This document shows positions 38,347 to 45,463 of a stretch of 45,463 nt of DNA, piece after piece. The translations under genes were made by a program, and so were the position numbers. The stretch lies in IMG/VR virus record IMGVR_UViG_3300044701_005145, positions 1 through 45,463 of that record, one strand, 5' to 3'. The DNA comes from a virus. The notes beneath the pieces are model-generated. The model was given only the letters and a program-made list of their open reading frames with translations. It was not told where the DNA came from and did no database searches. Every line of letters starts with the position of its first letter. The first letter of the stretch is position 1.

Positions 38347-38766
38347 TTAGATTATGTTTACCTTATTTTTTCTTTTTTCAGCCTCTTTCGTGTATTTGGG
38401 TATATAAACAGTAAGGATTCCGTCAGAAATTGTAGCTTCTAATGTTGAAGAATTATAATTGTTGTTCAATTTAATCCTCTTATTAATTTGTTTTTCCTTT
38501 TCTGTATTATTCAATTTATACTTTCTTGTTCCTTCTAAAACAAGTTCGTCACCTTCTACTGTAATTTCCAAATTTTCTTTGTTGAATCCAGGGACTTCAA
38601 AATGAAGATATGCACCATCTTTAACATGGTTTATTTCGTAATCCTCATCTTTTACACACTCTGTTTCTTTGTCCACAGGAACTAATCGATAAGTACTTGA
38701 ATAGTAGACAGGTTTAGAATCAAAAAATTTGTTAAACAGTTCATTAAAATCATTTCCGTAAATCAT
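38347..38766 (-). CDS. Small heat-shock protein, Hsp20/alpha-crystallin family
   Basis: Small heat-shock proteins hold unfolding proteins. The alpha-crystallin domain occupies about residues 45-130: AYLHFEVPGFNKENLEITVEGDELVLEG is the classic first half, and TLEATISDGILTVYIPK is the hallmark second half (A.l.dGvLtv.iPk). The C-terminus KVNII offers a V-x-I motif equivalent to the I-x-I oligomerisation motif. The N-terminal 40 residues are short and aromatic. T4-like and cyanophages often encode Hsp20. It is divergent from the ClpC-like unfoldase across a regulatory-looking gap. Confidence 0.92.
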   Translation of the reverse strand: MIYGNDFNELFNKFFDSKPVYYSSTYRLVPVDKETECVKDEDYEINHVKDGAYLHFEVPGFNKENLEITVEGDELVLEGTRKYKLNNTEKEKQINKRIKLNNNYNSSTLEATISDGILTVYIPKYTKEAEKRKNKVNII

Positions 38767-38832
38767 AGTTTTTATTTTTTAAATTTATTTATTTTAATGG
38801 AGATGGTCAAACCATATGCCAGTTCTTATTTT

Positions 38833-38845
38833 TGTCAATATGACA
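38833..38845. promoter_or_regulatory. Inverted repeat TGTCA-ATA-TGACA, candidate operator
   Basis: A perfect 5 bp dyad with a 3 nt spacer. The same half-sites recur at 38864 (TGTCA) and 38902 (TGACA). It lies between the divergent Hsp20 and ClpC-like genes and could bind a regulator of both. Confidence 0.4.
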
Positions 38846-38861
38846 TGTTTTTTTAAAAAGA

Positions 38862-38908
38862 AATGTCAATTTGTCTTCATTTAAAATAAATGATGAGAAT
38901 TTGACATT
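38862..38908 (+). repeat. Long imperfect hairpin upstream of ClpC-like gene
   Basis: The two 21 nt arms (38862-38882 and 38888-38908) can pair at 18 of 21 positions around a 5 nt AAAAT loop. The stem begins AATGTCAA and ends with TTGACATT, carrying the TGTCA half-sites. There is no following T tract, so it is unlikely to be a terminator. It could be an operator or a structured leader. Confidence 0.5.
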
Positions 38909-38980
38909 TTGTTTGGTTGTGTCCAAATTTTGAATGATATTTGTATCTGATTTACTAAATAAACAATAAAATTTTAGACT

Positions 38981-40990
38981 ATGAATGAATTAATCGACGA
39001 TGATGATGAAAAAACAACAAGTAGAAAAAAAACTTCAGAGAGTCAGACTCCCGTATTAGACAATTTTAGTAGGGATTTGAACAAACTCGCTGAGTTAGGT
39101 AAGTTAGACCCTGTTATTGGTAGGGAAAGAGAGATTCTACGAATTGCACAAATTTTATCAAGAAGAAAAAAGAACAACCCGATTATTATTGGTGAACCTG
39201 GTTGTGGTAAGACCGCAATTATAGAAGGTTTAGCCATGAAAATTTACAATGGGGAGTGTCCAAGAAATTTAATGGACAAAAGAATTGTTGCTTTAGATTT
39301 GACATCTGTTGTTGCAGGTACAAAATATAGAGGTCAATTTGAAGAAAGAATGAAAGTTATTATGGAGGAACTACAAGCCAACCCAAACATAATAATCTTC
39401 ATCGATGAAATTCACACCTTAGTTGGTTCAGGTAATGCTGCTGGTTCGATGGATGGTTCAAATATTTTCAAACCAGCTTTGGCAAGAGGTGAACTCCAAT
39501 GCATCGGAGCAACAACTTTGGATGAATACAGAAAGTCCTTTGAAAAAGATGGTGCTCTCGAACGTAGATTTCAAAAGATAATTGTAGAACCTTCATCTGT
39601 ACGTGAAACTGTAGAAATACTTAAAAACGTCAGAGACAAATACGAGTTGTTTCATAAGGTCACTTACAATGATGAGATTATCGAGGCCTGTGTAAAATTG
39701 GCGGATAGATATATTACGGACAGAGAGTTTCCTGACAAAGCTTTGGATATTTTAGACGAGGTTGGCGCAAAAATGCAAACACAACTAAAAATTCCACCAT
39801 CAATCGAAGAGTTGAAAAAGAAAGCTGAAGAACTAAGACAACAAAAAATGGATGTCGTAAAAAAACAAAACTACGAGCAAGCGGCAGAATTGAGGGATAA
39901 GGAAAAAAAATTAATATCGAAACTCGATTCAGAAAAAAAGAAGTTCGAAGAACAGATGTTGAAACAAAAACAACCGATTCTAATCGAGGATGTATATGAT
40001 GTGGTTTCCAACATGACTAAAATACCAGTTTCAAAAATGTCTGTTGATGATTTGAAATCTCTGATGAACTTGGATAAAGAATTATTAGGAAAAGTAATTG
40101 GTCAAGATGAGGCAGTGATTAAAATTGTAAAATCAATCAAAAGAAATCGACTCGGAATTAAAGACCCAAATAGACCAATCGGTTCATTTATCTTTTTAGG
40201 TTCGACAGGTGTAGGTAAAACACATTTGGCAAAAATTTTAGCAAGGGAACTGTTCGGAAGTGAAGACTCACTAATACGAGTTGATATGAGTGAATATCAA
40301 GAAAAACACGCAATTTCCAAATTAGTTGGAGCCCCTCCAGGTTATGTTGGTTATGATGAAGGTGGACAATTAACTGAAAAGGTAAAAAATAAACCATATT
40401 CTGTAATTTTATTTGATGAGGTTGAAAAGGCTCACAAAGACATTTTTTCAATATTACTTCAAATTATGGATGATGGATTTGTGACCGACAGCTTGGGTAG
40501 AAAAATTAATTTCAAAAACACTTTAATCATTTTAACATCAAATTTAGGTGTAAAGAAATTTCAAGATTTCGGTGCAGGAATTGGATTTGGAAGTAGTACA
40601 TATTCCAATGAAGAAGCAAAAAAACAAATGCTTGTTAAGGAAATGAAAAATTTCTTTTCTCCTGAATTTCTTAACAGAATCGACGATACAATCATGTTCA
40701 ATTCTCTCACTGAGGAAGACATCAAAAAAATCACCAAAATTGAATTGGATAAATTAACCAATAGATTAGTTGAGATGAATTACTTGATTAAATACGATGA
40801 AACTTTAGTTGATTTCATTTCAAAAGTAGGGTTCGATTCTACCTTTGGAGCAAGACCAATGAAACGAGCAATACAAGATAAAGTCGAGGATTTCGTTTCT
40901 GAAGAAGTATTAACTAACAAAGTCAAAGAAAACGTGAAATACGTAATCAAAGTTGTTGATGAAAAGGTAGTAATACAGAAAACTAAATAA
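38981..40990 (+). CDS. ClpC/ClpB-like AAA+ unfoldase lacking the Clp N-domain
   Basis: Two AAA+ modules are present. The first has Walker A GEPGCGKT (71-78), Walker [10 protein letters not shown] and a [10 protein letters not shown] sensor. The second has Walker A GSTGVGKT near 407-414, [25 protein letters not shown] and a C-terminal D2-small domain. Between them a short coiled segment with [16 protein letters not shown] resembles the ClpC UVR motif. The typical Clp N-terminal repeat domain is missing; only about 25 polar residues precede the ATPase. Residues 534-536 are IGF, aligned with the VGF/IGF loop that docks ClpC or ClpX onto ClpP, so it may feed host ClpP. 669 residues against about 810 for full-length ClpC. 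Confidence 0.9.
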
Positions 40991-42563: not shown

Positions 42564-43961
42564 TTAATTTTCATCAAAAATACTAAAAATTTCTGGATTA
42601 TTTATAAACTTGTAAAAATCTTCTTCAGAAAACTGATGAACTTTATTTTGTTTTGTATTTTTTTCTGTATCTATTTTCTGTAAATGAACTGTCAATTTTT
42701 TTGTTCCAGGATTGATGTCCATTATTTTAAAATATAACCCGTAGGGTGCTTGATACATGTTTCCAAATTTATATTTTTTCTTAATTCTATCAATTAAATT
42801 AATATATTCTCTATAATCTGGGTCATCTTCTAATTTATCAATTATATTTCCGAGTTCGTTTTTTACCTTCTCATTAAATTCATTACTATCAATTCTGGCG
42901 TCTGCTTGATATTCATATTCATAATAGTCCGACCAACCAATATGAGAATTAGATAAATTTAACTTGAAATATTTTGCAAGAACATCGGATAGACTTGAAT
43001 TAACGTCTCCTACAGTAGAATATATTTCCAAAAGTTTTCTTGGAGTTGTCACAATTTCTGTAGATGATTCATAATCAAATCCGTTTTCTTTAAAAAAAAC
43101 ATTAAGTTGTTTGTCAACATCGTCTTCAGCAATCTCATTAGCCAACTCATTAATTTTAGAAATATAATAATATTCTATATCATTATAATATCTTCCAAAT
43201 GAGTCTGTAATTCTATCCTCAAGTTTCACAAAATCTTTTTCTGAATAATCATCAATTTCTTTTTCAGGGAAAAAAAACTTAGAAATTTTTTTAATCATGT
43301 TTCTTCCTTCTTCGTCTATTCGGTCATATATTACCGCTAAAAAACTATCGTCCCCATACTCATATCTTGAGTAATCTATGAATTCGAAGTGTCTAGATTT
43401 TATTGTATTATAAAACCATATTTCATCATCAGATAAATCTATAATATCCAAGAAACCGTCGTCCCCTTCATTGTTTTCTAAATGTATTTTTGAGTTTAGC
43501 CTGTTCTCAAAGTCTTCACCAATACTATAAATCATATTGTCCGAATTCTCGAATGTCCTCGAAGAAATAACCCCTTTAATATATCTCCTTAATGCGTCAA
43601 AGAATTTACTTCCGAATACAATCTTTTGTGTTTTTTTGCTAAGCTCATTAAAATTATCATAATCTTTTTTAGCCTTTGAAATAGAACCATATTCTTCATC
43701 ATCGATTGATATTTCATAACTTTTTTGATTATATGGTCTGTAGATTACATTTTTGGTATTCGTTTTTTTATTAAAAACAATAAAAATTTCTCCATTTTGC
43801 AAAAGCTCTAAAATTTCAGATGTGTGTAGTCTGTCATATCCTTCTTCATCCAAACCAATATATGTGTTTCTACCATAATAAAGTACACCTTTCCATGTCA
43901 AAGGTCTTACAACCATAAACTCATCATCGTCCGAAATTATTTTTCTATCTTTGTCAGTCAT
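42564..43961 (-). CDS. Large hypothetical protein
   Basis: A 465-residue acidic protein that I do not recognise. It begins with a beta-rich region (EFMVVRPLTWKGVLYYGRNTYIG, then GEIFIVFNKKTNTKNVIYRPY), continues with helices rich in Asp, Glu and aromatic residues, and ends with beta segments (APYGLYFKIMDINPGTKKLTVHLQK). The first part looks like a small beta-barrel or SH3-like fold. A TATTTAT element lies 17 nt before its ATG. It stands alone upstream of the M20-like gene on the same strand, 35 bp away. Function unknown. Confidence 0.66.
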   Translation of the reverse strand: MTDKDRKIISDDDEFMVVRPLTWKGVLYYGRNTYIGLDEEGYDRLHTSEILELLQNGEIFIVFNKKTNTKNVIYRPYNQKSYEISIDDEEYGSISKAKKDYDNFNELSKKTQKIVFGSKFFDALRRYIKGVISSRTFENSDNMIYSIGEDFENRLNSKIHLENNEGDDGFLDIIDLSDDEIWFYNTIKSRHFEFIDYSRYEYGDDSFLAVIYDRIDEEGRNMIKKISKFFFPEKEIDDYSEKDFVKLEDRITDSFGRYYNDIEYYYISKINELANEIAEDDVDKQLNVFFKENGFDYESSTEIVTTPRKLLEIYSTVGDVNSSLSDVLAKYFKLNLSNSHIGWSDYYEYEYQADARIDSNEFNEKVKNELGNIIDKLEDDPDYREYINLIDRIKKKYKFGNMYQAPYGLYFKIMDINPGTKKLTVHLQKIDTEKNTKQNKVHQFSEEDFYKFINNPEIFSIFDEN

Positions 43962-43994: not shown

Positions 43995-44025
43995 TTTGTT
44001 ATTATCATATTTATTCTTACCTTTG
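43995..44025 (+). promoter_or_regulatory. Bacteroidota-type sigma promoter for tmRNA
   Basis: TTTG at 43995-43998 and TACCTTTG at 44018-44025 with a 19 nt spacer. This matches the primary-sigma consensus of Bacteroidota (TTTG, about 19-21 nt, TAnnTTTG). The start of transcription would be near 44032, about 13 nt before the mature tmRNA. Confidence 0.78.
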
Positions 44026-44044: not shown

Positions 44045-44464
44045 GGGGAAGACATGGAATCGACTGCAATATGTAGGTACAAGTGGCATGTCGGAGCTGA
44101 ATTAACTCCGAAAAAACTGATTTGAAAAACAAATGGCAAATCTTTTGCTAAGATGTCTGCTCTCGGTTTAATGAGAGAAGAATCTGTTGTTGCTGCGTAA
44201 TCGTAGAGAACAACCCACGGGTCGGTAAGGACATATACCTAGGAACAGAAGTCCATGAGGTTTAACAAATACCGCGTGATTCAGTTCAGGAAATTTGTTT
44301 GGTGGTGTTTTCGGTTCAAACCAACCTAATAGGAACCGACCACAGTTGTTAGTTTTAATGGAAAAATAAGAACTATCTATTTGTTGATTGAGAACTAATC
44401 AAATAAACATGTAGTCATTTGTGGTTGCTATTGCAACACGAGGGTTCGAGTCCCTCCTTCTCCA
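44045..44464 (+). ncRNA. ssrA: tmRNA (transfer-messenger RNA)
   Basis: tmRNA rescues stalled ribosomes by adding a degradation tag. The acceptor stem pairs GGGGAAG (44045-44051) with CTTCTCC (44457-44463), including a G3-U70 wobble, the alanine identity mark. Just after the 5' arm, GACATGGAATCGACTG matches the conserved 5' tRNA-like region, and the T arm GAGGG-TTCGAGT-CCCTC precedes the 3' end. GCAATA near 44066 can pair with TATTGC near 44429 to form the long helix 2. The hairpin CGGAG / CTCCG near 44090-44111 suits pseudoknot 1. The tag frame probably starts with GGC at 44135 and ends at TAA 44198, giving 21 residues: GKSFAKMS... to ...REESVVAA. CCA is not encoded. The tag is long and lacks the usual ALAA end. 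Confidence 0.93.
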
Positions 44465-44467
44465 CAA

Positions 44468-44651
44468 AAACAGGTGAGGACTGTGGTGCAACCCCACGGT
44501 ATATTAGTCCCAAAGAGCCGTCTTGAGTTCGCGATATTAGAGCGGTGAGGGTAGAGTCAATATAAGTCGGGAGTAGCTACCCAATGACGAAAATGTGACC
44601 GCCGATGTTAAAATCGGTAATGATGTACAATCGGGTACGATAAACCTGTTT
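44468..44651 (+). ncRNA. Candidate structured RNA between tmRNA and tRNA-Glu
   Basis: This 184 nt stretch is richer in G and C than its surroundings and has no ORF. Its ends pair perfectly over 8 bp: AAACAGGT (44468-44475) with ACCTGTTT (44644-44651). Inside, GGACT pairs with AGTCC and encloses a GTGG/CCAC hairpin; CGTCTTG pairs with CAATGACG with one bulge; GGGTAG pairs with CTACCC; CCGAT pairs with ATCGG; and TGTAC pairs with GTACG. A second ATCGG in the last loop could pair with the same CCGAT, as a switch or pseudoknot. It matches no RNA family I know. It may be processed from the same transcript as the tmRNA and tRNA. Confidence 0.6.
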
Positions 44652-44658
44652 ATTTTTT

Positions 44659-44732
44659 GCTCCGTTAGACCAGTGGCTTAAGTCGCTTCCCTTTCACGGA
44701 AGAAACCATGGGTTCGAATCCCATACGGAGTA
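44659..44732 (+). tRNA. tRNA-Glu (anticodon TTC)
   Basis: A 74 nt cloverleaf. The acceptor arms GCTCCGT and ACGGAGT pair, with a G1-U72 wobble that is unusual. The anticodon arm is CTTCC-CTTTCAC-GGAAG with anticodon TTC at 44693-44695. The T arm is ATGGG-TTCGAAT-CCCAT. CCA is not encoded. GAA codons are very frequent in the phage genes, so extra tRNA-Glu could aid their translation. Confidence 0.93.
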
Positions 44733-44741
44733 CTTCTATTT

Positions 44742-45323: not shown

Positions 45324-45463
45324 ATGAAAAAAGCAATCTTGATGTCACTTTTATCCTTTATCGTGACACTCACGTCTTTCGGGCAGATTACAACTTCTAC
45401 CCTGGCTGGCGTTGTTAAAAATGAAAAAGGAGAGGTTCTTGCAGGAGCTTCTGTTCATGCGGT
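45324..45463 (+). CDS. SusC/TonB-dependent receptor-like protein, N-terminus (3' truncated by window)
   Basis: The first 21 residues MKKAILMSLLSFIVTLTSFG form a signal peptide (two Lys, hydrophobic core, Gly/Gln end). The following QITTSTLAGVVKNEKGEVLAGASVHAV is the start of a CarboxypepD_reg-like domain, which precedes the plug and barrel in SusC/RagA receptors. It could also belong to another outer-membrane protein with this domain. The 5' leader is A/C-rich (AAACAAATAAACAAAACAAAC), without SD, as in Bacteroidota. The GC content is visibly higher than that of the phage genes, suggesting recent host origin. Phages rarely encode such proteins. The rest lies outside the window. Confidence 0.72.
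   Translation, partial: MKKAILMSLLSFIVTLTSFGQITTSTLAGVVKNEKGEVLAGASVHA

Follow-up and report, generated by a model that had tools for sequence, protein, structure and literature searches.

A conserved ~185-nt RNA of phage tRNA islands, likely a self-assembling noncoding RNA with two palindromic kissing loops

What is encoded in the 184 nucleotides that lie between the tmRNA and tRNA-Glu of a T4-like phage contig, and is this segment more than a spacer? The contig, an IMG/VR virus record of 45,463 bases that was analyzed over its whole length and is referred to here as the window, encodes a T4-type terminase, portal, and major head protein. Flavobacterium phages are among the closest annotated relatives of the terminase, at ~28% identity, and the large T4-like phages that bear the RNA described below probably infect Bacteroidota. 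The original prediction, made from sequence alone, proposed a structured RNA at 44468-44651 that contains no ORF, is richer in GC than the phage background, and sits 4 nt after the tmRNA and 8 nt before the tRNA. The segment indeed has no ORF of ≥60 aa, and its GC content is 0.48, compared with 0.26-0.32 in nearby sequence, while the gaps are corrected to ~0-2 nt on the tmRNA side and 7 nt on the tRNA-Glu side. Folding energy is not decisive as proof of structure, with the single sequence folding only weakly better than its shuffles (z -1.5; 11 of 200 did equally well). The decisive evidence, which upholds the proposal of a structured RNA, comes from homologs with compensatory changes in nearly every helix.

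Homologs were collected with sequence patterns from the RNA core, some of which left the hairpin loops free. A 17-nt exact pattern identified a phage with the same tmRNA-RNA-tRNA-Glu order and 80% identity. A covariance model, R1, was built from 26 sequences that include the window RNA itself (Table 1). At E <= 2e-20, R1 matches 40 copies, comprising the window and 39 others on further IMG/VR contigs, which represent ~29 different sequences; weak matches at L007:1176, at L099:2599, and in L140 were treated as chance and left out of the counts. With collection based on patterns, divergent relatives may be missed and sequence conservation is overstated. Every one of 21 RNA-bearing contigs, which reach 321 kb and include three of 317-321 kb, carries a single copy. 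Three related contigs of comparable size lack the RNA, which is therefore not essential to the wider lineage. An M20-type peptidase used as a probe retrieved 80 related phage loci, and the RNA was found in none of the 79 that were searched with the model, the 80th (L071) being the same contig as L002. The neighboring protein encoded at 42564-43961 retrieved no relatives. Among cultured phages, the best-ranked blastn matches to the window segment cover only its tRNA-Glu part, and a homolog used as query gave only chance 27-nt matches. One pattern-based scan across genomes of bacteria and archaea returned four matches, and neither the profile nor the covariance model confirmed any of them. No description of the ~185-nt RNA was found in the literature searched, which included few subscription papers and no preprints, so an existing description is not excluded. 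The existence of an RNA family with conserved structure is all but certain.

Comparison of these sequences shows that the ~185-nt RNA is closed by helix P1 and has a conserved core of several arms, with P2, P10, and P2a inside P1 and with P2a enclosing arms P3-P4-P5, P6-P7-P8, and P9 (Table 1). In a MAFFT alignment that was not fitted to structure, RNAalifold predicts 47 pairs, of which 17 show compensatory changes, and 97.5% of the cells are paired, compared with 92.1% in shuffled alignments and <=51% after the partners have been slid out of register. In the final model, which comprises 52 pairs, 98.1% of cells are paired and 26 pairs have changes on both sides. None of 500 shuffles is as good as this model, and pairing falls sharply when partners are slid, with the qualification that these statistics were computed on an alignment fitted to the model. 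A mutual-information scan of all column pairs yielded helix P2a and indicated that the P2 loop probably contacts the P10 loop. The check named by the original prediction, a search for homologs with covarying stems, is passed, and the perfect 8-bp closing stem that it described, AAACAGGU with ACCUGUUU at 44468-44475/44644-44651, also held. Its suggestion of two alternative partners for CCGAT failed: the P9 pairing of CCGAU with AUCGG (44602-44606/44613-44617) is the only one supported by homologs, and the other AUCGG, at 44630-44634 within the P10 loop, is not conserved. Visual inspection of the window also suggested a GGGUAG/CUACCC pairing and an H-type pseudoknot, neither of which is retained in homologs. 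Within the internal loop between P7 and P8, alignment columns 108 and 125 (window ~44569-44585) are G-U in 23 sequences and A-C in 4, an isosteric exchange that could reflect a structured internal loop.

Table 1 Predicted features of the tmRNA-RNA-tRNA-Glu locus, in window positions.
Feature	Position	Strand	Details
Predicted Bacteroidota promoter of operon	43995-44025	+	TTTG 43995-43998, TACCTTTG 44018-44025; 19 nt before tmRNA
tmRNA, upstream neighbor	44045-44465	+	ARAGORN end 44465; Rfam end 44467
RNA gene	44468-44651	+	188-position covariance model R1: 186.5 bits, E 5.5e-44
P1	44469-44475/44644-44650	+	5 of 7 pairs with compensatory changes
P2 hairpin	44480-44500 (44480-44486/44494-44500)	+	UG/GU and UA/AU changes
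P2-P10 loop contact, probable	CC 44492-44493 with GG 44633-44634	+	column pair 25-178, CG to GC in one clade
P2a, encloses P3 to P9	44502-44505/44619-44622	+	column pair 38-163: AU, GC, UA, GU, UG; never unpaired
Arm P3-P4-P5	44509-44551	+	P3 variants CCC/GGG, CUC/GAG, CUU/AAG
P3	44509-44511/44549-44551	+	
P4	44518-44521/44542-44545	+	
P5	44524-44528/44536-44539	+	
P5 palindromic loop UCGCGA	44529-44534	+	proposed homotypic kissing loop 1
Arm P6-P7-P8	44556-44599	+	P6 variants GUCA/UGAC, AUCAC/GUGAU, GUUAC/GUAAC, others
P6	44556-44560/44595-44599	+	
P7	44566-44568/44586-44588	+	
P8	44570-44571/44581-44582	+	
P8 palindromic loop UAGCUA	44574-44579	+	proposed homotypic kissing loop 2
P9 hairpin	44601-44618 (44601-44606/44613-44618)	+	3 of 6 pairs with compensatory changes
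P10 hairpin	44624-44639 (44624-44628/44635-44639)	+	3 of 5 pairs with compensatory changes
tRNA-Glu (TTC), downstream neighbor	44659-44733	+	start 44659

The loops of P5 and P8 vary in sequence, and all of their variants are palindromic. The P5 loop is UCGCGG, with G-U ends, or UCGCGA in most copies and UCUAGA in L120, L121, and L149, while L099, which is 98% identical to the window, has UCAUGA where the window has UCGCGA. L124 is divergent, with a different P5 arm and a loop that contains a CCGG aligned by hand. One of the patterns used for discovery fixed CGCG, and three others did not. The P8 loop, in 27 full-length sequences, is UAAUUA in 23 and UAGCUA in the remaining 4 (the window, L099, L002, and L005). 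At the loop centers, the dinucleotide is GC in 22 sequences, UA in 3, and AU in 1 for P5 (columns 66-67), and AU in 23 and GC in 4 for P8 (columns 115-116). Among the variable pairs of adjacent columns, 150 in all, these two centers are the only ones that switch among self-complementary dinucleotides in >=95% of sequences. On a tree built without the loops, the dinucleotide changes three times in P8 and five times in P5, and the new state is always self-complementary, although several nodes are weakly supported and the independent events are few. No columns elsewhere in the RNA follow the switches. Because adjacent bases cannot pair within one chain, and because no other column follows, the simplest view is that the partner of each loop is the same loop of a second molecule. 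Covarying palindromes of this kind support the symmetric kissing loops seen in the structures of OLE, where the palindrome alternates between GGCC, GAUC, and AGCU, and of GOLLD, where it alternates between GC and CG (Kretsch et al., PMC12286853). The same signature, covarying palindromic loop centers, is met here by two loops. We infer from sequence, with no probing or assembly data, that the P5 and P8 loops are likely homotypic kissing loops through which the RNA homo-oligomerizes, with the caveat that UAAUUA would form a weak, all-A/U helix.

In all 30 copies whose surroundings were examined, the RNA shares its strand with a tRNA/tmRNA array that contains or adjoins it, and many of these copies are 0-12 nt from their array neighbor. 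The neighbors themselves vary, with tmRNA, tRNA-Asn, -Thr, -Met, or -Asp on the 5′ side and tRNA-Glu, -Asp, -Gly, or others on the 3′ side. The promoter consensus for the primary sigma factor of Bacteroidota consists of TTTG near -33 and TAnnTTTG near -7 (PMC7366714). Six copies, none of which abuts an upstream tRNA, have a full predicted promoter, TTTG-N17-21-TAnnTTTG, that ends exactly 2 nt 5′ of the RNA, compared with a background for the motif of 1.2e-4 per base in the same loci; in a seventh copy, L104, TAnnTTTG lies 6 nt upstream of the RNA. These six promoters indicate that the RNA is a gene of its own and not a spacer. Many copies also have a U tract right after P1. The predicted promoter that precedes the tmRNA in the window recurs at the same spacing in seven other tmRNA-linked loci that were checked. 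We predict from these sequence features, in the absence of expression data, that the RNA is a transcript in its own right, made either alone or with the tmRNA and tRNAs. In the window it would be co-transcribed with the tmRNA and tRNA-Glu and released by tRNA-processing enzymes.

Several other features of these loci were recorded. A tmRNA scores above the Rfam cut-off in 18 of the 21 RNA-bearing contigs, and the tmRNA of the window, like those of L002, L099, L105, L116, and others, encodes an unusually long tag of 21 aa of similar form (e.g. GETFAKLSAIGLIREESVVAA). Directly 3′ of tRNA-Glu is the gene for a TonB-receptor-type outer-membrane beta-barrel protein, which is truncated by the end of the window (45325-45463). 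A protein of the same type at L071:1780-5064 (-) has 1094 aa with CarboxypepD_reg and OMP_b-brl_4. This is an odd gene for a phage and may possibly relate to receptor masking or exchange. The window also encodes an HSP20-type small heat-shock protein beside a 669-aa ClpB/ClpC-like AAA+ unfoldase (38347-40990), both of which are kept in L002. A second conserved RNA, of ~75-80 nt, was seen at L101:1598-1685 (-), closed by a long stem, UGAgACUAACUCA...GUGAGUUAGAAUCA, around the conserved center CGAGGACUUUGUYAACCA. It also lies 3′ of the ~185-nt RNA in L006, L007, L095, L100, L114, L118, and L123, usually between that RNA and tRNA-Asp. It was not seen in the window, and the L101 sequence has no Rfam match.

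The sequence was also compared with known RNA families. When all 4227 Rfam families were searched against the window and the segment, none matched the segment at either the gathering score or E <= 10, the only exceptions being spurious matches and matches to the tmRNA edge, and no family matched the homologs that were tested. Group I introns, RNase P, tmRNA, and known ribozymes are thus without an Rfam match to the RNA in either the window segment or the tested homologs, and the claim that the RNA is undescribed and belongs to no known family held. ROOL (RF03087) has no match in the window at the gathering score or in the segment at E <= 10; it was not found in 24 phage contigs either, but control genomes also gave no ROOL match. 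GOLLD has no Rfam match in the window and segment, the only sequences covered by that result, and the T4 tRNA region (L119) has no match to R1 at E <= 1.

Like the ~185-nt RNA, ROOL is a phage-encoded structured RNA found near tRNA islands; it is a homo-oligomer that forms an octameric cage through kissing loops and other contacts (PMC12286853). However, ROOL is ~570-660 nt long and has a different secondary structure. GOLLD is also a tRNA-island phage RNA and has a symmetric kissing loop in which the palindromic dinucleotide switches between GC and CG (PMC12286853), but many of its members exceed 800 nt and its fold is unrelated; the length of the RNA described here is a third to a quarter of that of ROOL and GOLLD. 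OLE forms a dimer and shares the symmetric kissing loop with a covarying palindrome (PMC12286853), but it is not a phage tRNA-island RNA, is larger, has protein partners, and gives no Rfam match to the ~185-nt RNA. RNAs C and D of T4 (species 1 and 2) are small stable RNAs of unknown function from the tRNA cluster of a T4-like phage. In contrast to the ~185-nt RNA, they are 139 and 119 nt long, with no covariance-model match between them and it, and RNA C folds with a tRNA-like T arm that the ~185-nt RNA lacks. The RNA is therefore best regarded as a separate family that is a member of no named one, related to ROOL and GOLLD in kind but not by homology. The comparison with GOLLD and ROOL in the original prediction accordingly holds for genomic setting and probably for behavior, as homotypic kissing loops, and does not extend to homology.

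The strongest competing explanation is a monomeric structured RNA that serves as a decoy or ligand for a host or phage protein, such as a nuclease, RNA polymerase, or ribosome-associated factor, with palindromic loops that bind a dimeric protein or another RNA rather than each other. The many conserved unpaired nucleotides of the core, as in protein-binding RNAs, favor this possibility, as do the small size of the RNA and the fact that phage tRNA clusters are known to encode stable RNAs whose function is unknown, T4 RNA C and D among them. However, the loop centers change and yet remain self-complementary, where a protein site would keep its sequence, and their switches are tracked by no other column of the RNA. 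We consider a monomer unlikely.

Alternatively, the RNA could be an element that only helps to process or space the tRNA/tmRNA transcript, by folding as a spacer or by cleaving itself, and that has no role of its own afterward, as its 0-12 nt distance from tRNAs in the window and many other copies might suggest. Against this stand the promoter 2 nt upstream in the six copies with no directly preceding tRNA, the differing neighbors in different phages, and the occurrence of a single copy in arrays that hold many tRNAs; such an element would also leave the covarying loops and long conserved core unexplained, making it very unlikely. A divergent member of a known family, whether ROOL, GOLLD, T4 RNA C/D, group I intron, or RNase P, has in its favor the genomic setting common to ROOL and GOLLD (PMC12286853). 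The lack of any Rfam match for the window segment or the tested homologs, the absence of an R1 match in the T4 region, and the differences in size and fold all but exclude it.

The reading we prefer, a stand-alone, self-assembling noncoding RNA gene of Bacteroidota-type phages that resembles ROOL and GOLLD in kind, is likely, although no expression, probing, or assembly data exist. In the proposed mechanism, the P5 and P8 loops would each pair with the same loop of another copy, resulting in self-assembly. Two different homotypic two-fold contacts per molecule imply either a closed dihedral particle of 2n subunits or a fiber; the ROOL (8) and GOLLD (14) assemblies are even-numbered (PMC12286853). 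By analogy with proposals for ROOL and GOLLD, and on weak inference, the RNA made together with phage tRNAs may act as an RNA-only scaffold or container during infection, and the assembly could, equally tentatively, hold translation components. A link to translation is the first to consider because of the constant company of phage tRNAs and tmRNA and because GOLLD is reported to bind ribosomes (cited in PMC12286853). A bolder version, which we rate as less likely than not, is that the ~185-nt RNA alone builds a closed dihedral 2n particle through its two self-kissing loops; it might then be the smallest cage or ring that RNA forms in nature, and it would be the third independently evolved assembly RNA of phage tRNA islands, and, if true, one shared need would be met by unrelated RNAs.

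The function of ROOL and GOLLD, both of them large RNAs, is unknown. At ~185 nt, the RNA described here is short enough to be synthesized chemically, mutated at every position, and studied by routine structural methods, which makes the role of such RNAs directly testable, and its covariance model allows the gene to be annotated in Bacteroidota phages that have not been cultured. A small, independent RNA with both the genomic setting of ROOL and GOLLD and their kissing-loop signature would suggest that self-assembling RNAs recur in phage tRNA islands, answering some need of large phages.
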